DNA from: Pycnococcus provasolii
Taxonomy: Eukaryota; Chlorophyta; Pseudoscourfieldiophyceae; Pseudoscourfieldiales; Pycnococcaceae
Assembly: GCA_938743325.2 (NCBI GenBank)
Contig: OW568890.1
Coordinates: 496,001-560,000 of the forward strand
Direction of reading: 5' to 3'
Length of the DNA: 64,000 nucleotides
The notes below the pieces were generated by a model. That model was not told the DNA's origin. It ran no database searches and saw nothing but the letters and a program-made list of their open reading frames with translations. Every line of letters begins with the position of its first letter. Positions within the stretch are counted from its first letter, which is position 1. Shown here piece after piece: positions 7,496-62,598 of this stretch. A program made the position numbers and the translations under genes.

Positions 7496-7508
7496 AGGGT
7501 TAGGGTTA
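7496..7508 (+). repeat. Short TTAGGG-type interstitial repeat
   Basis: Two telomere-type units (AGGGTTAGGGTTA), ending 76 bases upstream of the DUF1365 start codon. Comparable arrays lie near several other start codons in this window. Confidence 0.75.
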
Positions 7509-20078: not shown

Positions 20079-20611
20079 TGCTCTTCGGAGCTCCCCCTTG
20101 TCACTTGTCACTTGTCACTTGTATAAGCTGTACACTGTAAAGGTGTATTCCAGCTTACATAAAAGTAAAACATTCTGGAAGTCACGAGCAAACTGCCTTG
20201 TTGATCAACGAGACCCTTCCAAGAATCCCTTCCAGGACGGGGATTCATAGTCAGGCACATCATATCTTGCAAGACCTTTTTTTGAGGCTTGAGGCTTGAG
20301 GCTACGGTTAGGGTTAGGGTTAACCTTAGGGTTACAGTACGGGCTTTCTCGTCCTCCTCTCCTCCTCTATGGCGCCTCGGGGTTGCGCTCCAGAGAAAGA
20401 AAGAAGTGTGGGCGGAACGGATGGACGGACCTTTTTGAACATGAATGAGCCACAGGTCTTTGTTTCAATTTATATGCGTATTGCGTTGACGAAATAAAAC
20501 AAACACCTTCTTGACCTATTACTATTCTTGAAGTTGACAATTTTTTTTTTTTCTCGTTTTTCGTTGTTCATTCATGAAACTTCGGTGTCCATGGATAATA
20601 GCGGGAAAGCC
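20079..20611. other. Intergenic region with short tandem repeats
   Basis: Contains about four copies of CACTTGT (20097-20122), three copies of GAGGCTT (20283-20302) running into a TTAGGG array (20306-20323), and a T-run at 20541-20552. No coding potential was recognised. Confidence 0.5.
20306..20323 (+). repeat. TTAGGG-type interstitial repeat
   Basis: About three telomere-type units, followed by a related inverted fragment (TTAACCTTAGGGTTACAGTAC). It is not close to a recognised start codon; the nearest is the large minus-strand gene about 950 bases away. Confidence 0.75.
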
Positions 20612-21508: not shown

Positions 21509-21544
21509 AGGGTTAGGGTTAGGGTTAGGGTTAGGGTTAGGGGG
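21509..21544 (+). repeat. TTAGGG interstitial array
   Basis: Five to six telomere-type units in a row (CAGGGTTAGGGTTAGGGTTA and onward), about 180 bases upstream of the MsrB-like start codon. Confidence 0.9.
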
Positions 21545-24158: not shown

Positions 24159-24860
24159 TTAAGCCTGGATCGTGCCTAGCACGTCCCTTTCAGGAATGAC
24201 GTTGTACTCCGTTCCGTCGGGCATGTTCATCTTCTCACCCGCCCACTTGAAGAACACAACCTTCTGCCCCGGCTTCAACTTCACGTCGACGTGCTCGCCA
24301 TCCTCCTCCTTTCCAGGACCGCACGTCACCACCTCGGCAATCGTCGGCTTCTCCTTGGCACTGCTCGGAAGAAGCACGCCTCCTGCGGTGGCGTCAGCCG
24401 CCTCCTCGACGCGAAGCAGCACGCGGTCCTGGCACGGCTTCATCTGCGGCACGTCCTCGATGCGCGCGGCAGCTGTGGGCATGATTCCAATCACATCACA
24501 TTCGCGCAGCATGCAGTACTCGGTTCCCGCGACTTTGACGTCCGTCGCTCCGATTCCAAACTTGCTGTACAGCACGGTATCCCCCTTTTTGAGTCCCTTG
24601 ACATCCGGCCCAACGTCGGCGATATCCCCTGACGTCGGTTTGCGCTGCGCCGCGTCTGGGAGCAGCACGCCCCCTTGCGTTTCTTTCTCCGAGTCTGCCG
24701 TTTTCACGAGCACCATGTCTTTGAGCGGACGAAGTGTCGTGAATGACGACGGCAGCTCCATGGGTTTCGCCATCGCGCGAGTCGAACAAAACCGGCCTCG
24801 AGGAGGAGCCTGAGACCTCCCAGCATACCCGCGAAGGCGAAGACTACCAAGGCTGAGCAT
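24159..24860 (-). CDS. CPN20: Chloroplast co-chaperonin Cpn20 (tandem Cpn10/GroES domains)
   Basis: A 233-residue protein with two fused GroES-like domains, the plastid Cpn20 arrangement that caps Cpn60 in the stroma. The transit peptide is about residues 1-40 (MLSLGSLRLRGYAGRSQ...). Domain 1 (about 43-127) has TTLRPLKDMVLVK, ETQGGVLLPDAAQ and the roof-to-base segment TVLYSKFGIG. Domain 2 (about 138-232) has MKPCQDRVLLRV, ATAGGVLLPSSAKEKPTIAE and VVFFKWAGEKMNMPDGTEYN. Each domain keeps the GGVLLP mobile loop. Its 5' flank is short: a GTGCT tandem (24862-24886), then the target duplication and end of a Mutator-like element only 70 bases upstream of the ATG, so the native promoter is probably interrupted or displaced. 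Confidence 0.95.
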   Translation of the reverse strand: MLSLGSLRLRGYAGRSQAPPRGRFCSTRAMAKPMELPSSFTTLRPLKDMVLVKTADSEKETQGGVLLPDAAQRKPTSGDIADVGPDVKGLKKGDTVLYSKFGIGATDVKVAGTEYCMLRECDVIGIMPTAAARIEDVPQMKPCQDRVLLRVEEAADATAGGVLLPSSAKEKPTIAEVVTCGPGKEEDGEHVDVKLKPGQKVVFFKWAGEKMNMPDGTEYNVIPERDVLGTIQA

Positions 24861-24886: not shown

Positions 24887-24930
24887 AGGTATGGCGGCGC
24901 AGTAGGGCGGATGAGAGTTATTTATTTCTT

Positions 24931-25092
24931 GGGAGAAATACAGTACGCCCCGAGCCAGAAAATCGAAATTGCAGTACGCCCCGTTTTCGTCCTAGTTCGC
25001 CCCGGAAAGAAATCCTAATTACAGTACGCCCCGGTCTGAAATTCTAACCCTAACCCTAACCCCAACCCACTGTATTCTGTCGTTGTCCGGTT
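24931..25092 (+). repeat. MULE left terminal inverted repeat (162 bp)
   Basis: Begins GGGAGAAATACAGTACGCCC. It contains GTACGCCCC boxes and CTAACCCTAACCCTAACCCC (25044-25063). It is the exact reverse complement of 26084-26245. Confidence 0.92.
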
Positions 25093-25194
25093 GTTGCCAC
25101 TTCGGAAGGAACTCCTTATCCTCACCGTATCTCTCATTCTTCTCCAGATTCTTCTTGGGGCATCATGAACTCCTCCTCTTCATTCTCGTCGTCC

Positions 25195-26037
25195 TCATCT
25201 CCTCCAAGTGTGGGCCTCGTGGGCCTTGCACAACCACTTGCCGTGGCAAAGTCTGAAAGATGTTTTGAAGGCACAGCCCTTTACAGGGCAAAGTGCGCGA
25301 ACAAAATCAGCACTTTTTTGGCCTTTTCCATTAGGTCCGTCAGAGAAAGACAAAGCTTTCTTGTCTCTCTCTGCACACGCCTTAATGTTCGCAAGTACTG
25401 CACTGCGGTGCGGATAAGTTGTTGACCCAGCCACAAAGGTAACGTGCTCCGCCTCGCTGACTCTCATTGGCTTCAAAGGGCTTTCCATTTTCAAAATCTC
25501 AGCAGCCTCCTCCCGCCGCCTTTGCTGAAGCTCCTTCTTCACCTTCTTCTTTTCCGGAGTTGAAATTGGGGATACTTGAGCTGGACGTCCACGTCGCCTT
25601 TGTGTACTAGCATCCTCAGGATCATGCGCACCGTCTGCCGGAGGATCATGCGCACCGTCTGCCGGAGGTTCAAGCGCACCGTCTGCCGGAGGATCATGTG
25701 CATCGTCTGCCGGAGGTTCAAGCGATTCCGCTGCCGGAGGATCATGTGCATCGTCTGCCGGAGGTTCAAGCGCTTCCTTTGCAAGATCACCCCGCGTTTG
25801 AACTCCTCCACGTGCACGGCGCGTAGAGTGTGCCCGAGTCCTTGAAGCATCGTATTCTCCAACGCCACGACTTGAACCAGCTTGCGCGGTAAACAACGCG
25901 CGACTTGCAGCCGCAGATCGTCGTGTAGCTCCTCGCGATGTTGATGTCTGTGTGTTGTTCTCACGATTAAGTTGCAGCAATGTTGCTGCGACGTTCCCAC
26001 TTGGACTAGCTAGTACGGCACGCTGCCTGGGTGCCAT
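25195..26037 (-). CDS. MULE-borne protein with MuDR/FLYWCH-type zinc finger, no transposase domain
   Basis: A 280-residue frame that fills the interior of the MULE. The N-terminal half is Ala/Arg/Ser-rich. Residues of about 84-140 come from a seven-fold 24 bp tandem repeat (25618-25785), read as eight-residue units of the PPADDAHD/PPADGALE type. A basic stretch (STPEKKKVKKELQQRRREE) may be a nuclear localisation signal. The C terminus has a C-x4-C...H...H pattern (RALCPVKGCAFKTSFRLCHG, then KWLCKAHEAHTW). This resembles the zinc-binding DNA-binding domain at the front of MuDR-type transposases and FLYWCH domains. The frame ends right after the finger, so no DDE catalytic part follows. It may be a truncated transposase or an accessory DNA-binding protein of the element. 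Confidence 0.6.
   Translation of the reverse strand: MAPRQRAVLASPSGNVAATLLQLNRENNTQTSTSRGATRRSAAASRALFTAQAGSSRGVGEYDASRTRAHSTRRARGGVQTRGDLAKEALEPPADDAHDPPAAESLEPPADDAHDPPADGALEPPADGAHDPPADGAHDPEDASTQRRRGRPAQVSPISTPEKKKVKKELQQRRREEAAEILKMESPLKPMRVSEAEHVTFVAGSTTYPHRSAVLANIKACAERDKKALSFSDGPNGKGQKSADFVRALCPVKGCAFKTSFRLCHGKWLCKAHEAHTWRR
25618..25785 (+). repeat. 24 bp tandem repeat, seven copies, inside the MULE ORF
   Basis: Units start at 25618, 25642, 25666, 25690, 25714, 25738 and 25762. The consensus is AGG(A/T)TCA(T/A)G(C/T)GCACCGT then CTGCCGG. It encodes an acidic, proline-bearing eight-residue repeat; the last unit is diverged. Confidence 0.9.
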
Positions 26038-26083
26038 GGGCTCGAAATGTTTTGGCGCGAGAAATGGACAAAAAGGTCCAAAA

Positions 26084-26245
26084 AACCGGACAACGACAGA
26101 ATACAGTGGGTTGGGGTTAGGGTTAGGGTTAGAATTTCAGACCGGGGCGTACTGTAATTAGGATTTCTTTCCGGGGCGAACTAGGACGAAAACGGGGCGT
26201 ACTGCAATTTCGATTTTCTGGCTCGGGGCGTACTGTATTTCTCCC
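26084..26245 (-). repeat. MULE right terminal inverted repeat (162 bp)
   Basis: Exact reverse complement of the left repeat, ending TACTGTATTTCTCCC at 26245 and followed by the TTATTTCTT duplication. Confidence 0.92.
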
Positions 26246-26254
26246 TTATTTCTT

Positions 26255-27371: not shown

Positions 27372-28447
27372 ATGGCAACTTGCAGCTTGCAAAACACGAC
27401 TTCGACTTCTCCTCACTTGTGTGGCGAGCACTCACAGACGAAAGCGGAGCAATACCAGTGTGGCGACATCACGCTGCTTCTGGGAGGGGCGGCGCGCATG
27501 CGGCTGAAACCCAAGGGAACCGACTATCGAGAAAACCGCACGTCACTCATCGCATGGGTGCAGTACCACGCCAACGCCATGCAACTGCAGCGCTCGACAG
27601 CATACGCGGCGGTCTTCCTCTTGGATAGGCTCGCGGCCGCCACGGACGTCGCGAACAGCGTCTGCCGCCTGGCCGCGGCGACGTGCCTATGGATCTCAGG
27701 TATGTTTCAGATGTGCAGGGTTTATTTTGATGGATGCGCGCCTGAAAAGTACCAAAGACAATACACTCACGAAACATACACACACACACACACACAAATA
27801 AACACCCGCTCTCACCATCTCCAGTGAAATACGACGACCCTGACGCGGACCTTACAAGCGAACAGCTGTACCACATGTGCGAAGGCCTCTACCCCGTCAA
27901 GTACTTCCAGAAGATGGAGCGGTGCGTGCTGAACAAGCTCAGGTGGAGCGTTGCGAGTGCCTCGGCGTACCACTTCCTGTACTACTTCATGCAAGAGTCG
28001 AAGCCAAAGATGGCGTGGGGGATGGCGGACGCGAACACGCCAACACTTTCCTTGCATATGGCAAAAGTGCTTGACGAGTGCGTCAAAGACGCGTGGTTCC
28101 TGCAGCACTCGCCCGTCACGCTCGCATCTTCGCTTTTGTACTGCCAGAGAGTAGTGTGGGACGGCGGAATGGTCAAGCTCACGGGCCACACCGTCGAGCA
28201 AATGCAGGACTGTGTGGACCGAGCACGCGCCGTTTGGGAGCGCTGTCGACACACGGGCATGCACGCGGGCACCACCGACAAAGGCGGCGCGTACTCGAGC
28301 CCACGTTCGGTGCTTGACGGCAGCTTGATGTGCGACGAGGGGATGGACAGTGACATCGAGGACGATGGCAGAGACTCTGTGCCGCCGTCCGTCGCGTCGA
28401 TGTGCCTCGTTGACATCGACGCCGTCGTTGACATGAACGCGGAGTGA
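27372..28447 (+). CDS. Cyclin-like protein with one 125 bp intron
   Basis: Exon 1 is 27372-27699 and exon 2 is 27825-28447, giving 316 residues. The splice restores the cyclin box: the first exon ends ...CRLAAATCLWIS and the second begins VKYDDPDADLTSEQLYHMCE, matching the usual LWIAxKYED region. Upstream, LIAWVQYHANAMQLQRSTAY and AVFLLDRLAAA form the first cyclin-fold helices; downstream are MERCVLNKLRWSVASASAYH and a second, weaker fold. Cyclins bind and activate CDKs; which class (A/B/D or transcriptional) is not clear, and no destruction box is obvious. The intron (GTATGT...CCAG, phase 1) contains a CA dinucleotide run. The ATG follows a GTG in frame; ATG at 27372 is preferred. Confidence 0.82.
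27700..27824 (+). other. Intron of the cyclin gene (125 bp, phase 1)
   Basis: Donor GTATGT at 27700, acceptor CCAG ending at 27824. A (CA)n tract of about 18 bases (27779-27796) lies shortly before the pyrimidine-rich acceptor. Splicing is required to restore the cyclin-box match and the frame. Confidence 0.85.
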
Positions 28448-29159
28448 CAGCTGGGCACGTGGGCCGGTGGGACGTTGCGGGTGGAGGTGCCTCAGGTGCG
28501 CATGCGACGGTGCGGCCTGGATATTGATATTTTTTATTTTTATTTTTAATTTTATTGTATATGGTATGGTATGGTATGGTATGGGCGAGCGATCGCGCTC
28601 ACAAGGATGGCTGACAAGGGATGTACAGGAACCGAATTGATTACTATGTTCATATTTACATACACACAGTAAGATTTAGCGTTCACTCAATTTATTTTAA
28701 TCTTAACATACATATATATGAATATACGACGTTGAAAGAAAAGACCGCATGCATCTTCTTCATCGAAAAGGGCACGTTCACCACTTACTTATGCGTTGTT
28801 TATGTCATGTTACTACTACCACGGCAGGGATGACAACTGCAAGGAACACCCATAAAGCAGGTATAGATAACCGCATAAGTGTATGTAAGGTTATTATCTA
28901 TGCATATGTACCTGTGTTTCCCTACCAACAGGGAAGTCTAGGAGCCTACTCTTAGGGACAGATCAGCTGACACGACTTACCAGGGGATCCAGCCAGCCGT
29001 TAAGCCGTTACGTTATGACAAAGACGTTGAATAGGGGTTTGAATAGGGGTTTGGTTTGCGGCCCTCTCCCCCCTCCCCCGAGGGTTAGGGTTAGGGTTAG
29101 TCTTCCACCTGTCAGCGAATCTGTGTCGCCCATAAGGGTCCTACAGTAAGTTCGCGGCC
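28448..29159. other. Intergenic, AT-rich, with simple repeats
   Basis: Distinctly AT-rich against the surrounding genes. It contains an (ATGGT)n run (28561-28583) and a TTAGGG array (29081-29100). CTACAGTAAG lies at 29141-29150, just before the next start codon. No gene was recognised. Confidence 0.5.
29081..29100 (+). repeat. TTAGGG interstitial array
   Basis: Three telomere-type units (AGGGTTAGGGTTAGGGTTAG), ending 60 bases upstream of the tandem-SH3 protein start. Confidence 0.9.
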
Positions 29160-35443: not shown

Positions 35444-35503
35444 GATTGATGCGCGGAACCTCGAGAAGAACGGAGTGGAGGTGGGCGGGGGGAGGATTAA
35501 TTC

Positions 35504-35535
<32 letters not shown>

Positions 35536-35766
35536 GGTTAGGGTTAGGGTTACTGGGTTAGGGTTCCTACGGGGTGGGGTCCCTCTCCTTCCTCTCAAGG
35601 CCTTCCCTATTGGCTCTTATGAATTCCTTAATTATTTCGCTTTTTCTTTTTAGGTTTGATTTCAAACCTCTCCTTTGACAGATACGGTGGAACCTTTTGT
35701 AAATATTTCACTAGTTCAGTATTTCTCTAAGGTAACTCGTCGTTTTCGTTTTTAAAAATACGCGCC
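35444..35766. promoter_or_regulatory. Divergent spacer between the Deg1 and IQ-protein genes
   Basis: A 323 bp head-to-head spacer likely to hold both promoters. It contains the longest TTAGGG array of the window (35504-35566). The right half is AT-rich (TAAATATTTCACTAGTTCAG near 35699), close to the second start. No TATA box is convincingly placed. Confidence 0.5.
35504..35566 (+). repeat. TTAGGG interstitial array (longest in window)
   Basis: About nine telomere-type units with two impure spots (a TTTAGGG unit and a TTACTGGG break). Confidence 0.92.
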
Positions 35767-42534: not shown

Positions 42535-43521
42535 GGTATTTATATTCAGGTACTGTCAACTGTACGGGGGCCCTTGCACACACACGTGTATATATAAAAA
42601 AGGCCTTAACAAACGTTGTGTCACCTCACCTTAAGCTTAAGTTCAGGGGACTTTGAATAATGGTTGAGGCACCTGAGTTTTTGAAAATGAATAACTGACC
42701 CGTGTTGACGTTGACGCTGGTGGCTGGGCCTGGCGTCAACGTCCCAGTCTGCCGGTGGTCCAGAACTTGTTTTGGCCGGAAGGAAGGCTCGTAGTTACAG
42801 TAGGGCAGCAGCGGGGATCCAGGAATTTTACTTCTACGCCCTAAGGTGGTTCCCCAAGAACCCCCTTAGAGGAACATTGCGCCAACTCAACAGACAGGGA
42901 GTGAGTGGGGCCGTTCACTCCCACTTGGCCAACCACCTCCTGGCTCCTGGGCGCCCTCCTGAAGGCGGTGTCGCCCTTGCATAGACTACCTTTACGATAG
43001 TCTCTCCTCTCTCCTCTTCCCTCTTCCCTCTTCCGTCTTCAGGTGCCACAAAGGCAATAGCGGCCTGCAACGGTAACCTTCCCGGAGCCTCCCTCGCCTC
43101 ATCGAGCCACTATCGTAGGGCGAGGGAACGAAAGCGAAAGCGAAAGCGAAAGCGAAAGCGAAAGCGAAAGGCGGGAGGCGGGAGGCACAGCAAAGCGTGA
43201 AAGCACTGGAGCAGGAAGCAGGGTACAGGACAGGGAGTGCCTTGCACAGTGCACACTCCCAGCTTAAGTCTTAAGACAACTGGTCGTGGCAACTGGCACC
43301 AACTGCCCCAAACTCGCCCGTCCCGTGCTTCATGAAGGCATAGAACCCAACAGGACCTGTCACCTGTTCTGTTGTCCCAGACAGACTTGCCTTGCCTGTT
43401 CTGACCTTTCCTTCACTTCCTCCCCTCCCGGCCCCTTCCCTTCCCTGTTCTTCTCGTCTCACCTTAGTAGCAGCGGCAATACTCGTCCCTCCTTCAGCCT
43501 TAAGAAGCACGGCCTTACACC
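42535..43521. other. Intergenic region with a hexamer microsatellite
   Basis: About 1 kb, head to head between the coiled-coil and NME7 genes. It contains (CGAAAG)x7 at 43129-43170, TTACAGTA at 42795, and several CTTAAG sites (for example 42632-42640). Short frames here have no recognisable product. Confidence 0.5.
43129..43170 (+). repeat. (CGAAAG)7 microsatellite
   Basis: Seven perfect copies of CGAAAG in the upstream spacer of the NME7-like gene. Confidence 0.95.
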
Positions 43522-44496
43522 ATGGGCGCCGTCGGCGAACGTCTCGCTTTCCTGACGGAGTGGCTCGACCCGCACGCCTCCTTGGTCTTCACCTACCAGC
43601 TCGTCTACCACCTTGTCGACGACACCATCGAGATGTACGACCTGCGCAACCGACGCCCGTTCCTCAAGCGCATGCCCTACCCCGCGGTCTCCGCGGACAT
43701 GCTCTACCTAGGAGCGAACGTCACGATCCACGGACGACTCCACAAGGTGGCGTCGTACGCCGACGAGTACACGAAAAGTAAAGTCGAGGGTGGGCAAACC
43801 GCGGGAACCGTCCTCGTGCCTCTCACGGAACTTGGAAGCACGCTCGACGCGCTGCAGGTGCGCGCGGGGGCGCTCGTGCGCGACATTGCGTGCTTCGCGG
43901 ATGCGGGCACCGGGGCCGCCACCGCGGCTCTCAGCGTGAGCGTCAGGGGGAACGCGACGCTCGCGGACGTGTGCGCCGAGAACAAGCTCGTCGCGAGGGA
44001 GGATGCCACAGGCGCCGGTGCCAAGGCGCTCGCCTCGAACGCACTCACCACAAAGGCGCTCGCAAGCTGCGACAACACCACGGCGCTGTGCATCATCAAG
44101 CCACACGCCGTGCTCGCCAAGCTCACGGGATCCATCCTCCAGGCGATCGTCGACGCGGGCTTCGACCTAAAGGCTGTGCGCATGTTAACTCTCGACCGCG
44201 CGAACGCCTCGGAGTTTTTGGAGGTGTACAAGGGAGTCGTGCCCGAGTACGCCGCCATGGTTGACGAGCTCGTCGCAGGGCCGCTGTACGCCGTCGAGGT
44301 GGGCAGCGCCGGCCCGCAGGTGGTGGAGAGCCTTCGCATGCTCGCTGGACCTCCTGACCCGGAGGTTGGCCGGCTGCTGCGCCCCAACTCGCTGCGCGCG
44401 CGCTTCGGGCTCGACAAGGTGCGCAACGCCGTGCACACGACAGACCTGGAGGAGGACGGCGAGCTCGAGACGCGCTACTTCTTCCAAATTCTCTGA
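43522..44496 (+). CDS. NME7: NME7-like protein: DM10 domain plus one nucleoside diphosphate kinase domain
   Basis: A 324-residue protein. Residues 1-88 match the DM10 domain (ERLAFLTEWLDPHASLVFTY, TIEMYDLRNRRPFLKR), which binds microtubule doublets. After a linker of about 100 residues comes one NDK domain (about 190-324): ALCIIKPHAVLAKLTG, GPLYAVEVGSAG, LRARFGLDKVRNAVHTTDLE. This is the architecture of NME7 (Chlamydomonas FAP67), found in the gamma-tubulin ring complex and inside axonemal doublets. Animal NME7 has two NDK domains; only the first is present here. The catalytic-type His is kept (NAVHTTD) but the usual GSD after it is TTD, and the K-P-D-x motif is KPHA. The long linker is not part of the family core. 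The next gene converges with only 45 bases between the stops. Confidence 0.85.
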   Translation: MGAVGERLAFLTEWLDPHASLVFTYQLVYHLVDDTIEMYDLRNRRPFLKRMPYPAVSADMLYLGANVTIHGRLHKVASYADEYTKSKVEGGQTAGTVLVPLTELGSTLDALQVRAGALVRDIACFADAGTGAATAALSVSVRGNATLADVCAENKLVAREDATGAGAKALASNALTTKALASCDNTTALCIIKPHAVLAKLTGSILQAIVDAGFDLKAVRMLTLDRANASEFLEVYKGVVPEYAAMVDELVAGPLYAVEVGSAGPQVVESLRMLAGPPDPEVGRLLRPNSLRARFGLDKVRNAVHTTDLEEDGELETRYFFQIL

Positions 44497-51989: not shown

Positions 51990-52391
51990 AATCCGTCGTT
52001 TAATTGGATGGGACGAGCGAGATGAGAGCATCCAGAAGGGGGTTGAGAGAGACTCTGGTTGAGAGGGGAGGAGGAGGTTAGGGTTTTGGGGGAGAGAGTT
52101 AGGGTTAGGGCTAGCTAAGTGCCCCCTTCCCTTCCCTTCGAAGCCTTTCTTTCTCCACCTCCACCTCCCCCTGGACCCGTTATTATTATTACGGTTACGC
52201 TCGGACTGAGACATCTCTCTTTTTTTGGATTTCCCTTTCTCTGCTCCGGCTCCGGAGGATGCGTGTGAGTCGATGGCCTTCTTCATGTCCTTTAAGGGTT
52301 CACTCGCACTCTCACTCTCACTCTTCTTGTAGAAGTCGTCGTCATTGTCGTCGACTCTTGGATGTCGCTTCTTCTTCCCGGTCTTCTTCAT
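51990..52391 (-). CDS. Possible Lys-rich ORF overlapping the guanine deaminase 5' end
   Basis: On the minus strand a frame starting at 52391 reads [20 protein letters not shown], then [20 protein letters not shown] and [20 protein letters not shown], before running into telomere-type repeat coding. The composition looks like that of a basic nuclear protein, not a shadow. It overlaps the first 44 codons of the guanine deaminase frame on the other strand, so at most one of the two is likely to be coding there. No family was recognised, and the 3' part is unlikely to be real. Confidence 0.2.
52077..52112 (+). repeat. TTAGGG-type interstitial repeat, interrupted
   Basis: GGTTAGGGTTTTGGGGGAGA then GAGTTAGGGTTAGGGCTAGC, about 100 bases upstream of the DnaJ start and 150 upstream of the guanine deaminase start (divergent pair). 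Confidence 0.8.
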
Positions 52392-56552: not shown

Positions 56553-59087
56553 TCAATCACCATTGCGGAAACGAGATTCCTCGAATTCAGGGATGTCGAG
56601 GAATCGGCGCGAGAGGGGCGGCGCGCCATGCGACTGAAATCTTGCCGCACGCATTCGCCCACGCGATCGAGGTGTTGATTTTTCCAACAAGACTCGTCCT
56701 ATTGGCTCTGACGACATCGAACTGTGCGAAAATGGCGGCGAGTTATCCGAGGATATGATCGAGGTGATTGTGCGAGGTGGCGTCAATAACGGCGACGATG
56801 CGCCGTTCCCATCTCCATCCGCACTGCCATGTCGGTCAACCGCCGCAGCCGTCTTTTCAACACGAACCTTTTCATCCATCGCCGAGGTGATTGCGCGAGG
56901 TGGCGTCAATAACGGCGACGATGCGCCGTTCCCATCTCCATCCGCACTCCCATGTCGGTCAACCGCCGCAGCCGTCTTTCCAAGGCGAACCTTTTCATCC
57001 ATCGCCGAGGTGATTGTGCGAGGTGGCGTCAATAACGGCGACGATGCGCCGTTCCCATCTCCATCCGCACTGCCATGTCGGTCAACCGCCGCAGCCGTCT
57101 TTCCAAGGCGAACCTTTTCATCCGCCTTGAAGGGTTTCGGCACGTTGTATCGAGGCTTTTCCCAGAGCACCTGGCGTGCATCATTGATCGGCGCTGGTGG
57201 CGTCTCCAGTTCCGCCCAACGCGCGTATTTTGCCGCCTTGACGGCATCGCCACGTGCCATGTGGTTGTACATAACGCGTCTGAGCCCTTTCGTCTCGCTC
57301 TCGTCCAGGTCGCCGCCGGGTACCGCATCCTCGGCACAATCACCCTCATTCTGAATCTGCCGGCACCGGTAAATTGCCATGGCCGCGGCCACCGACACGT
57401 TGTACGAATCCGCGAATCCGTGCATGGGAAGGCTCACAAGTCCATCACACCCGCGCAGAAGCTCGTCTGACGGTCCCATAGCCTCGCTGCCGAATGCAAG
57501 ACACACCCTCGACGCGCTGTCTCGTAGCCGTTGGTGCAGCACAGATCCCGGCGGATCACGTCCTACAGGCATCAGCGGCACAGCCTGTGGACGCACGTCG
57601 AGCAGGAATGTTTGGAACCCTTCTTCACGTGCGACGGCTAGGGCGTCATCAGCGCTTGCGTGCTCCGTGACCGTGAGCCACCGCGAAAGCCACGATCCGT
57701 CGACACCGGCGGCTGATGCTTTTGCGAATTTCGAGTCGCCCGCCGGTTTTGCCAGGCCATGTTCCTTCGAGTATGCGATACGCTTGCGTATGAGCCCGCG
57801 AGGTCCCTGTTTTTCGTACCGCTTCTGCAGTTTTTCGCGCAGCCGTTCGGCGTGTTCGAATCCATCCGGCGTCTCCGGATCGAGAAACGTGGGCCTCTGA
57901 TTTGAGTCGTATTTTGGCTGTTTCCTTTTCTTCTGCGCGTTCGTTCTGTCGTCTGGTTTTTCGTCAGGCTGAAGCGCGACGTGCTGTCTGCGCTTGGATG
58001 GATCAGTCACGACGACGAACACTCGCTGCACGCCAAGTCCGTCGCACGTGCGCAGGATGTGGTCAGCGTTTTTCGCCTGGAAGATGCACTCAATCAAGCA
58101 CGCAAGACGCATCGTGCGGTGACGAAGCACGCCCTCGACTCGGCGTAAGCACGTGGGTGCGTTGTCGCCGTCGAGATCTTCTTCCGACACTTCTTCCTCC
58201 ACAAGGATATCTGCGAGGAGGTTATCTTCCTCCTCGTTGTCCTCTGTGCTGGTTTTCTCGTCGTCACTGCCTTTCCTTTCTTCTCGTTGGTTGGCGAGCT
58301 GTCTCCTGCGCTCAGCCTCCTCGGCAATGAAGAGAAGTTCGTCAAAGTCAGAAGGCTGTTCCAATTTTCCTTCTTCTGCTTCTGCGTCGTTATTCGCGCG
58401 GGACGACTGTGTCGGCGTCGTCGTTTTTGCCTTGTTGGCTGACGCTACCGTGCTTGTCCTTTCGTCTGGTATGGGTGGAATCTCAGGTTCCTCTTCATCT
58501 TCGGAATCTTCGTCGAGCCACTTTCTGATTTGCTCTAGTTTGGCACGTCGCCGCCCCGAGGCGGATATGTTGCGCAGAGGCGGGGGTAGTCTGCCTACGA
58601 CTTCCATACATTTGTGCCAGAGCGCGGCGGAGAACGCTTGGCCGTGTCGCAGAGCCTGGACGTGTGGAGGTGTGTGTGTGGAGGTAGACGCCTGCTTCGA
58701 GGCATCGGGCTTAGACTGTGCTTTGCTAGTTTGAGAAGACTTTGGCGGTTTGAGCGCGAGGGAAAGCCAAACTCCTAAAACGGATAAAGCTAGAGGAAAT
58801 CCGAAATTGCTGCGTCGTCCTCCTGAACCCGCGGGAAGGTCTTCAACTTCCTCCTGGGACCACCCTCCTGGATACGCAGATGAAGAAGAAGAAGCAGATG
58901 GCAGTGCCGAGGACGAGGGGATGCCTCGCCACATGGATGTCACCTCACTCTCACGGAAAGAAGAAGGAGTCCTCTCTTCTTCTGAGAAGGAGGAGGAGTC
59001 CTGAGCGAAGTCCTGAACGAAGGCCAAGGCGTCCACGTCAGCAAAGTCGTAGTCGTAGTCGTCGCTGAGCGGCGGCGGCATCGCCAT
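56553..59087 (-). CDS. SpoU/TrmH-family RNA 2'-O-ribose methyltransferase with threefold internal repeat
   Basis: An 844-residue protein. A SPOUT knot methyltransferase domain lies at about 320-600. Motif 1 is FQAKNADHILRTCDGLGVQR, motif 2 AFGSEAMGPSDELL and motif 3 SLPMHGFADSYNVSVAAAMA. These are the SAM-binding and catalytic motifs of tRNA (Gm18) and rRNA ribose methylases. A large insertion between the first and second parts (about 355-470) is charged and variable. The N terminus is acidic (DDYDYDFADVDALAFVQDFA) with one short hydrophobic stretch (FGFPLALSVLGVWLSLAL), which may be a membrane or buried segment. After the domain the chain has three copies of a 41-residue unit (DEKVRLGKTAAAVDRHGSAD then GDGNGASSPLLTPPRTITS). 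The target RNA is unknown. TGTAA lies near 56490 on the minus strand. Confidence 0.85.
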   Translation of the reverse strand: MAMPPPLSDDYDYDFADVDALAFVQDFAQDSSSFSEEERTPSSFRESEVTSMWRGIPSSSALPSASSSSSAYPGGWSQEEVEDLPAGSGGRRSNFGFPLALSVLGVWLSLALKPPKSSQTSKAQSKPDASKQASTSTHTPPHVQALRHGQAFSAALWHKCMEVVGRLPPPLRNISASGRRRAKLEQIRKWLDEDSEDEEEPEIPPIPDERTSTVASANKAKTTTPTQSSRANNDAEAEEGKLEQPSDFDELLFIAEEAERRRQLANQREERKGSDDEKTSTEDNEEEDNLLADILVEEEVSEEDLDGDNAPTCLRRVEGVLRHRTMRLACLIECIFQAKNADHILRTCDGLGVQRVFVVVTDPSKRRQHVALQPDEKPDDRTNAQKKRKQPKYDSNQRPTFLDPETPDGFEHAERLREKLQKRYEKQGPRGLIRKRIAYSKEHGLAKPAGDSKFAKASAAGVDGSWLSRWLTVTEHASADDALAVAREEGFQTFLLDVRPQAVPLMPVGRDPPGSVLHQRLRDSASRVCLAFGSEAMGPSDELLRGCDGLVSLPMHGFADSYNVSVAAAMAIYRCRQIQNEGDCAEDAVPGGDLDESETKGLRRVMYNHMARGDAVKAAKYARWAELETPPAPINDARQVLWEKPRYNVPKPFKADEKVRLGKTAAAVDRHGSADGDGNGASSPLLTPPRTITSAMDEKVRLGKTAAAVDRHGSADGDGNGASSPLLTPPRAITSAMDEKVRVEKTAAAVDRHGSADGDGNGASSPLLTPPRTITSIISSDNSPPFSHSSMSSEPIGRVLLEKSTPRSRGRMRAARFQSHGAPPLSRRFLDIPEFEESRFRNGD
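56761..57129 (-). repeat. 123 bp tandem repeat, three copies, inside the SpoU gene
   Basis: Units start at 56761, 56884 and 57007 (exact 123 bp spacing, 41 codons, in frame). Copies differ at only a few bases. Confidence 0.95.
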
Positions 59088-59958
59088 GGAACAAATGGAA
59101 CGGGTTCAACAAGCCCCAAAATTAGGGGGGAGTCCAGGGTTAGGGTTAGGGTTAGGGTTAGGGCTCCTTCTTACCCTAACCCGTTCGGGTTCACCTTCGC
59201 GTGTCTCCTCGCACTCGCCAAGTACACCCTCACCTTGCCTTGCGCCTGGAACCTCTCCCAGAAACCGACCAGCCTCGGCCAGTGCCTCAAACGCGACGCG
59301 CACGCCCAGCTCGTCGCGAAGCAAGTTGTCCAGAACCGTGAACAAGTTGTCAAGTTGGGGAAACGGACGCGTTGCTCGTTTGTAGCTTCATGCTTTCTCC
59401 TGCAGTCATGTCGTCGGTGACTCGAGTACAGTCGAGAGGCCATACAAAGCCAAAGGCGTCCTCTTGCCCAGCCATGTAGGCTGCGGCCATGACGTAAGCT
59501 GCTCTCTTACCTAAGAGTTAGGTGATTCCTAACACAACGTTGTGTGGCGGGCTGCGCAGTAGCCCAACTCACTTCTGACTTCACCTTAAGGCCGTTAGGC
59601 CGCCAGGCTTAAGGGAAGGTAAGGATAAGTAGAGAATGGTTACAGGATAGGAAAAATATAAAACACTTATCCTGTTCCCCTCTACTCCTCTAGGGGTTAT
59701 CTGTTCCCAGGGGAGCGTATTAGGGGTTATCCCCACAGCAACCCTAGGTAGCCGTAACCCTAGCTGGCCGTAGCTCTAGAATGGGTCCGGACGACCTCCA
59801 CCTCACATGACGCGCGTAATTTGCCAACTATAGTTGTTTGTGCCTTCTCTGCCGTGTGAATGGTGTGAATGGACAACCGCTGGACAGAGTAAAGTACACT
59901 TCATTCCTGAATGAGTGATCTCAGGAGTAAAGTACATTCCGTTACTGAACGAGCAATC
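59088..59958. other. Intergenic region, nothing coding recognised
   Basis: Contains the TTAGGG array at 59136-59163, repeated motifs GAGTAAAGTACA (59887 and 59926) and several GGGTTAT/CCTTAAG sites. A short plus-strand frame (59086-59385) begins in the repeat and has no family match. Confidence 0.45.
59136..59163 (+). repeat. TTAGGG interstitial array
   Basis: Four telomere-type units (AGGGTTAGGGTTAGGGTTAG and onward), 49 bases upstream of the SpoU start; a short opposite copy (CCCTAACCC) lies at about 59173. Confidence 0.9.
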
Positions 59959-61020: not shown

Positions 61021-62598
61021 GATGGGCTCGATCGCAGACGCGGGAAGGGGAGGGGACGCGGGAGGGAGGGGAGAAAAAGGGAGAAAAGGCGGAGGGCCTG
61101 ATTATTCGGGTTTCTATTGACCTCTGCTCGGAAAACATGGAAGGATCGGGGTTTCAATCCGCCAATATGGGATGGCATGGCTGCCCTGGCTGGCGCGAAC
61201 TCCGCGAAGTGAGTTTCAGGTGACAAGTTGAGGAGGGTCGGACTTCACCATGCATTCGCCATCCCGGTATATCCCCTACGATAGGGCGCGCGATTCCAGA
61301 GAGATTGCAGGAGGCGAGAAAGACGAGGAGACAGACGCCTGCGACCGACAAGGGGAGAAGACAGGGGGTCCACCAGCCAGGCTGCCAGGGAGGGTGGAAC
61401 AGGAGAAAGAGTAGCTCAGGAGAGGTTTCCCAGGGCCTTCACAGAACGTGGTTGTTTGCTGGGTAAGCTTGGTTTTATCGGTAGTCGCAAGAGCACTTCC
61501 CACCCGGCCTGGCATTGGCTTCCAGGGGCCAAGTGAGGGGAAGGAGAACGAGTAGTTGACCTAGTTCCCAGGGCCGGGCAAGAGGTGCCTGGACCATTTC
61601 GTCACCTACCAGGGCCTGGGAATCCGGGCAACTACTCTTTCTCCTTCCCCTCTTCTTGGCCCCTGGAAGCCAATGCCAGGCCCTAGGTGGGAATACCCCC
61701 GGGAAAACCTTGCCTGAGCTACTCTTTCTCCTCCACCTGGAGGGCCACCCTCCCAGGAGAACAAAATTCCCTGGAATGGAAAATAGGCGCGAAATTGCAT
61801 GGAACCCATGGACAAGCACGACTCCTGTGCAGCACTGTATCCCCAGACACTTCAAATAAGGCAAGGCCGCCGATCCCACATGCATGCCTCATCAGTCCCA
61901 AGTATTTGGCCTCCGTCTGTATCCCAACCACGGCAATCCAAGTCTTGCGCGACCACAAACACAACCACAAACACAACTACCCGTTGGCATTTTGGACAGC
62001 TCGTAGGTGGTGGTTTCTGAGTCCACGGGTTGCTCAACCTCCCGGATGGACGGCTCTCGGTTGCCGCAGGCGGCGATTCGGCCTCTTCTTGTTGTTCCCT
62101 TAGTTTTGGAGTTCCTTGATGGGCTGGAGGTTGAAAACCAACCGCCTCGCCTGGCCGAGTGAAACAGCTGTAGTTGAGGGTCTTGGAGGACGTACGTCGT
62201 TCGTTCGTGCCGGGTCCTGTGCTCCCTCTCCTCTCCGCCTCCCTTCCCTTCCCCGGGTTCCTAGCACCCGGCCTCAACTCTCTCCCCTCTCCTGGGCGAC
62301 AAACAGCTCGCTCCTCGCCATCCGCAGGACAGTACACTCGTGGTGCCAGTACTCGCGCTCAGCTCAGCTCAGCGAGTGTGTACACGTGCACTTGCACGAG
62401 GAGTACAACAACGCTTGTGCTTGTGCTCAAGGCTTGTTGCTTAAGGCTGGTCTTGCTCGGTTTTGGGTTAAAGTAGTCCTTCTCACAGAAGTCTAGCTCG
62501 GCCGGCTTGCTTTCGAGGTCTGCGCGACACTCCGCACTGCGCAAACACGGGGCAGGAAGGGCAGCCTGAGAGGACACTCGCCTCAGCTTGAACACAAC
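61021..62598. other. Intergenic region holding a nested inverted repeat
   Basis: About 1.6 kb. Bases 61380-61760 form a large imperfect palindrome. The remainder has no recognisable gene. Simple CA/ACAAC tracts occur at about 61953-61978, and CAGCTCAG runs at about 62360. Confidence 0.5.
61380..61760. repeat. Imperfect palindrome of four related units
   Basis: Outer arms: GGAGAAAGAGTAGCTCAGG (about 61403-61421) pairs with CCTGAGCTACTCTTTCTCC (about 61713-61731), extending to AGGGTGG/CCACCCT. Inner arms: GGCATTGGCTTCCAGGGGCC (61511-61530) pairs with GGCCCCTGGAAGCCAATGCC (about 61659-61678), continuing through GGGGAAGGAGAACGAGTAGT and its partner. The centre is near 61592. The outer and inner units also resemble each other directly (GGAGAA[A/C]GAGTAG...TTCCCAGGG). 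The left side has about 65 extra bases. It could be a decayed foldback element. Confidence 0.75.

Follow-up and report, generated by a model that had tools for sequence, protein, structure and literature searches.

An inverted-repeat element upstream of a CPN20-type gene

The DNA analyzed here (the window) is a 64,000-nt stretch of the Pycnococcus provasolii genome that carries, on its minus strand, a CPN20-type gene. Its product has an N-terminal extension followed by two tandem Cpn10 domains (PF00166 twice), as expected of CPN20; the gene is a probable chloroplast co-chaperonin gene. Upstream of it lies an element with long terminal inverted repeats (TIRs; Table 1). Read inward from 24931 and 26245, the two arms match at 162 of 162 bases, with the first mismatch at position 163, and a mismatch-tolerant extension brings the pair to 165 nt at 99%. 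Both flanks read TTATTTCTT, an exact 9-bp duplication. The initial annotation had reported perfect 162-bp ends, an exact 9-bp duplication and an insertion point 70 bases from CPN20, and each of these observations was reproduced: 70 bases separate the end of the element, and 61 the duplication, from the ATG at 24860. When the whole window was scanned for inverted pairs (seed 14, ≥30 nt), the 13 pairs other than the TIRs, by eye mostly simple repeats, were ≤61 nt and ≤90% complementary, the longest of them measuring 61 nt at 80%.

Table 1. Positions of the element, its components and associated features in the window.
Feature	Position	Strand	Remarks
CPN20-type gene, two Cpn10 domains	24159–24860	−	PF00166, 2 stretches, E = 9.4e-46
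Target-site duplication TTATTTCTT, left copy	24922–24930	unstranded	9 bp; flank comparison
Whole element	24931–26245		1,315 bp
Left TIR, 162 bp	24931–25092	+	arm-to-arm comparison; identical with right arm
Iteron 1, CAGTACGCCCCG, putative transposase site	24941–24952	+	right-arm mirror 26224–26235
Iteron 2, CAGTACGCCCCG	24972–24983	+	right-arm mirror 26193–26204
Degenerate iteron, TAGTTCGCCCCG	24993–25004	+	right-arm mirror 26172–26183
Iteron 3, CAGTACGCCCCG	25022–25033	+	right-arm mirror 26143–26154
Telomere-like AACCCT array, left TIR	25044–25068	+	183 bases from CPN20 ATG
280-codon ORF	25195–26037	−	24-bp tandem repeats, basic stretch, C-terminal C-x4-C-x20-H-T-W
24-bp (48-bp) tandem repeat within ORF	25618–25773	−
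Right TIR, 162 bp, putative ORF promoter	26084–26245	−	inverted-repeat comparison
Telomere-like AACCCT array, right TIR	26108–26132	−	edge 70 bases upstream of ATG of 280-codon ORF
Target-site duplication TTATTTCTT, right copy	26246–26254	unstranded	9 bp; flank comparison
AACCCT-type arrays outside the element (≤1 mismatch)	7496–7507, 20304–20321, 21509–21538, 29081–29098, 35503–35565, 52095–52112, 59136–59165

The insertion places the former upstream sequence of CPN20 a further 1,324 bp away (1,315 + 9), leaving the last 61 bases and the duplicated target beside the gene. Expression of CPN20 may have been lowered by this displacement, the TIR may act as a replacement, or the 61 bases may be sufficient. 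A TATA-like AAATAAATAAC was noticed by eye at the insertion border; inspection of 22 upstream regions by eye revealed no consistent box, and no claim is made for it. A plus-strand ORF at 27746–28444, likely a divergent neighbour of CPN20, is cyclin-like by weak matches to Cyclin_C (E = 0.00035) and Cyclin_N (E = 0.046), both below the Pfam cut-off.

Several features lie elsewhere in the window. Nested imperfect inverted repeats of 35 nt (89%) and 44 nt (84% complementary) at 61401–61732 are possibly a second, older palindromic element. Three copies of a 123-bp tandem repeat (97% matches) occupy 56760–57123, within a long minus-strand ORF, and an NDK7-type nucleoside diphosphate kinase is encoded at 43504–44496; NDK7 is usually a ciliary protein, hinting at a flagellated host. 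Neither a tRNA nor, at gathering score, any Rfam family was detected in searches of the window.

Iterons and telomere-like arrays in the TIRs

Each TIR contains three exact copies of CAGTACGCCCCG and one degenerate copy, TAGTTCGCCCCG. The exact sequence occurs six times in the window, always within the TIRs (6/6); with ≤2 mismatches allowed there are 13 sites in the window, against 6.0 expected, and 8 of them are in the TIRs. These iterons are likely to be transposase sites.

The TIRs also carry a telomere-like AACCCT array, and the exact 12-mer of the right-arm array precedes the ATG of the internal ORF by 82 bp. Outside the element, exact AACCCTAACCCT is present at six loci, and at five of these a long ORF has its first ATG 49–77 bp downstream. 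Pfam scans covered four of the five ORFs preceded in this manner and gave a match for each, with DUF1365, SH3 and Trypsin_2 above the cut-off and SelR below it. For five of six host arrays the binomial P is ~6e-6 in the zone from −40 to −100 and ~6e-4 from 0 to −160, as calculated against a background of random non-coding positions with zones fixed after the data had been viewed. An array with one mismatch (52095–52112) lies between two divergent ORFs. Since the element's array is positioned much like five of the six host arrays, the TIR possibly carries a host-type promoter, which may face inward. An exact array in the 49–77 bp zone was found at only 5 of 22 host starts, which were hand-picked from the ORF list as first ATGs, with the cyclin-like ORF at 27746 excluded. 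As most of these starts are without one, an array promoter would be one type among others.

It is quite possible that the TIR array is instead incidental, a captured interstitial telomere repeat with no promoter role. Telomere-like repeats may spread without any function, the closest start downstream of the sixth exact host array (20310–20321) among those used is 971 bp away, and most of the 22 host starts lack an exact array. The placement of five of six host arrays, and of the element's own, 49–82 bp upstream of an ATG argues against this explanation, and we favor a promoter role by a modest degree. As a separate observation, all seven arrays outside the element (≤1 mismatch) read AGGGTT on the plus strand, whatever the direction of the neighbouring gene; the two-sided P for this orientation bias is ~0.016, from a hand coin-flip count on 7 loci. 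The 61 bases remaining at CPN20 contain no AACCCT array, the nearest being that of the left TIR, and our array search of the window detected none between the right end of the element and 29080.

The internal ORF

The ATG of the 280-codon ORF is 46 bases from the inner end of the right TIR. The basic stretch of the predicted product includes RGRP, which we take to be AT-hook-like, and the spacing of cysteines and histidine at its terminus is zinc-finger-like by eye and by count, with a tryptophan at the position where a C-C-H-C/H finger has its final zinc ligand. The C-C-H-C/H pattern is that of the WRKY-GCM1-type zinc-finger DNA-binding domain of MULE (Mutator-like element) transposases. At the same end of the ORF an alternative frame encodes an acidic stretch that runs to a stop, as at a deletion junction. 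We suggest that the ORF is a transposase gene truncated to its 5′ part, with the zinc finger and without the catalytic part, as would result from an internal deletion.

A different origin, as captured host sequence (Pack-MULE-like) or as non-coding filler, is possible, though we think it doubtful. None of 500 mononucleotide shuffles of the element interior contained an ORF as long as this one (maximum 228), a comparison to which the ORF's tandem repeat contributes, and this result, like the Cys/His spacing, argues for a transposase remnant. Other properties point the opposite way. GC3 is 0.42, compared with 0.55–0.85 in 22 hand-picked host ORFs, and the synonymous score is −0.10, compared with 0.00 to 0.23 in the same set and lower than in four of the ORF's own five other frames. 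GC content varies with codon position when the ORF is taken in full (p = 1e-7), yet the final 140 codons, which include the zinc-finger-like motif, show no such variation (p = 0.74). Its coding status is for this reason insecure: the ORF may be the remnant of a coding sequence of foreign composition, or it may be non-coding. Homology searches are likewise compatible with filler or capture, as the 280-aa product matched no Pfam family at E ≤ 10. Its last 99 residues, searched alone, matched no Pfam family at E ≤ 1 and no PDB relative (best E = 0.81, MutS2), and a single-sequence structure model of this region was poor (pLDDT 42.6). A repressor role for the truncated product was considered and is not supported; the title of a maize paper reportedly denies that deletion derivatives of MuDR act as dominant-negative regulators.

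Age of the insertion and searches for other copies

With 0 of 162 TIR differences, the upper 95% bound on divergence between the arms is 1.8%. This identity allows a recent insertion, and gene conversion could also keep the arms identical. An older element, its TIRs preserved by conversion or because they are under selection as a domesticated promoter of CPN20, is in our judgment very unlikely; 0/162 differences cannot alone tell youth from conversion, but the 9-bp duplication, which lies outside the TIRs, is also intact, though nine bases say little on age.

No copy of the element was found in IMG/VR viral contigs, GTDB genomes (one pattern scan) or phage records, where a nuclear eukaryotic element is not expected. 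Protein searches of the IMG/VR contigs returned 71 and 16 stretches, none of them confirmed, and exact TIR patterns had no match there; phage records gave nothing by blastn, or by tblastn with the last 99 residues of the ORF. A two-iteron pattern matched 1 viral and 42 prokaryote stretches. Comparison of the element and its TIR with these 43 loci by blastn yielded only 14–34 bp matches with E ≥ 0.13, and the loci were therefore dismissed as chance or coding repeats.

Class of the element and proposed history

TIR-MULEs have TIRs of >100 bp and duplications of 8–11 bp, and the present element has both, with 162 of 162 TIR bases matching and an exact 9-bp duplication. The label Mutator-like, given in the initial annotation, is upheld as far as these lengths are concerned, and on them it rests; no MULE-type DDE transposase domain was detected by Pfam in the 280-aa ORF or in 10 other element-overlapping ORFs (≥50 aa), which gave three weak matches below the cut-off, none to a transposase. 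With no such domain inside, the element is best read, provisionally and from its sequence, as non-autonomous and MULE-like, an ordinary kind of element that probably forms a new family. The same anatomy could belong to a different superfamily of TIR transposons that makes 8–9 bp duplications, such as hAT or KDZ/Zisupton-like elements, or to an undescribed one, given that there is no transposase domain to name the superfamily. In hAT elements, however, the duplications are 8 bp long and the TIRs are short, as opposed to the 9-bp duplication and 162-bp TIR observed here, and we regard another superfamily as rather unlikely.

From the TIRs, duplication, repeats, ORF, distances and array positions we infer the following history, which in our estimate is probably correct as a whole. 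A non-autonomous MULE-like element would have entered TTATTTCTT upstream of the CPN20-type gene, recently and by cut-and-paste. Its TIRs would have two jobs: the CAGTACGCCCCG repeats would bind transposase, and the AACCCT array would provide a host-type promoter motif, whose right-arm copy would drive transcription of the internal ORF. This ORF would be what a deletion has left of the transposase gene, namely the 5′ part encoding the DNA-binding zinc finger, and since only this part would remain, movement would require a full-length copy elsewhere.

A bolder proposal, which we consider quite unlikely, is that the host's telomere-repeat promoter motif has become part of both TIRs in this transposon family, and that every insertion thereby brings a ready-made host promoter; here the motif is 183 bases from an array-less CPN20 gene, which it may now control. 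Should the TIR act as a host-type promoter that can move, every new insertion in this gene-dense genome could rewire a gene, and the present copy would offer a natural test case involving a chaperonin gene. The positions of the arrays further suggest the hypothesis that, for some genes of this organism, AACCCT arrays lying 50–80 bp before the ATG serve as promoter elements.

Comparison with known systems

Among the titles and abstract openings surveyed in the literature on MULEs, Mutator, telo-boxes and interstitial telomeres, green algae included, no description was found of a TIR combining iterons with a telomere-like array. One close likeness is to non-autonomous TIR-MULEs and deletion derivatives of coding MULEs, which share with the present element long near-identical TIRs (100–500 bp in TIR-MULEs), an 8–11 bp duplication, genic insertion and, as in this copy, the lack of a catalytic domain. 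Unlike TIR-MULEs, the element has no detectable MULE protein homology, and its TIR carries iterons and a telomere-like array. Passages of PMC5225508 give MULE TIRs as typically >100 bp with 8–10 bp duplications, and passages of PMC3903597 state that MULEs favor low-copy or genic targets and that, in maize and rice, MULE transposases lost coding capacity mainly via deletions.

For the AACCCT arrays, two parallels can be drawn. TBE transposons of Oxytricha also carry host-like telomere repeats, but as described in part of PMC3558436 these are C4A4 repeats in elements with Tc1/mariner-family transposases, whereas the present AACCCT lies 114–138 bases inside a 162-bp TIR. The plant telo-box, a telomere-type AAACCCT of ribosomal-protein genes (PMC3212954, in part), resembles the present arrays in motif; the arrays comprise two or more AACCCT hexamers, and their function here is putative.

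With respect to insertion, the element resembles Muta1 of Aedes aegypti, whose reinsertion produces 8–9 bp duplications according to sections of PMC5225508. The same sections report that most yeast reinsertions of the active MULEs Muta1 and rice Os3378 were within genes or ≤1 kb away. Both differ from the present element in that their transposases are known. In the ADE2 5′UTR, a short Muta1 derivative led to leaky expression and a longer one to a block (PMC5225508, same sections).
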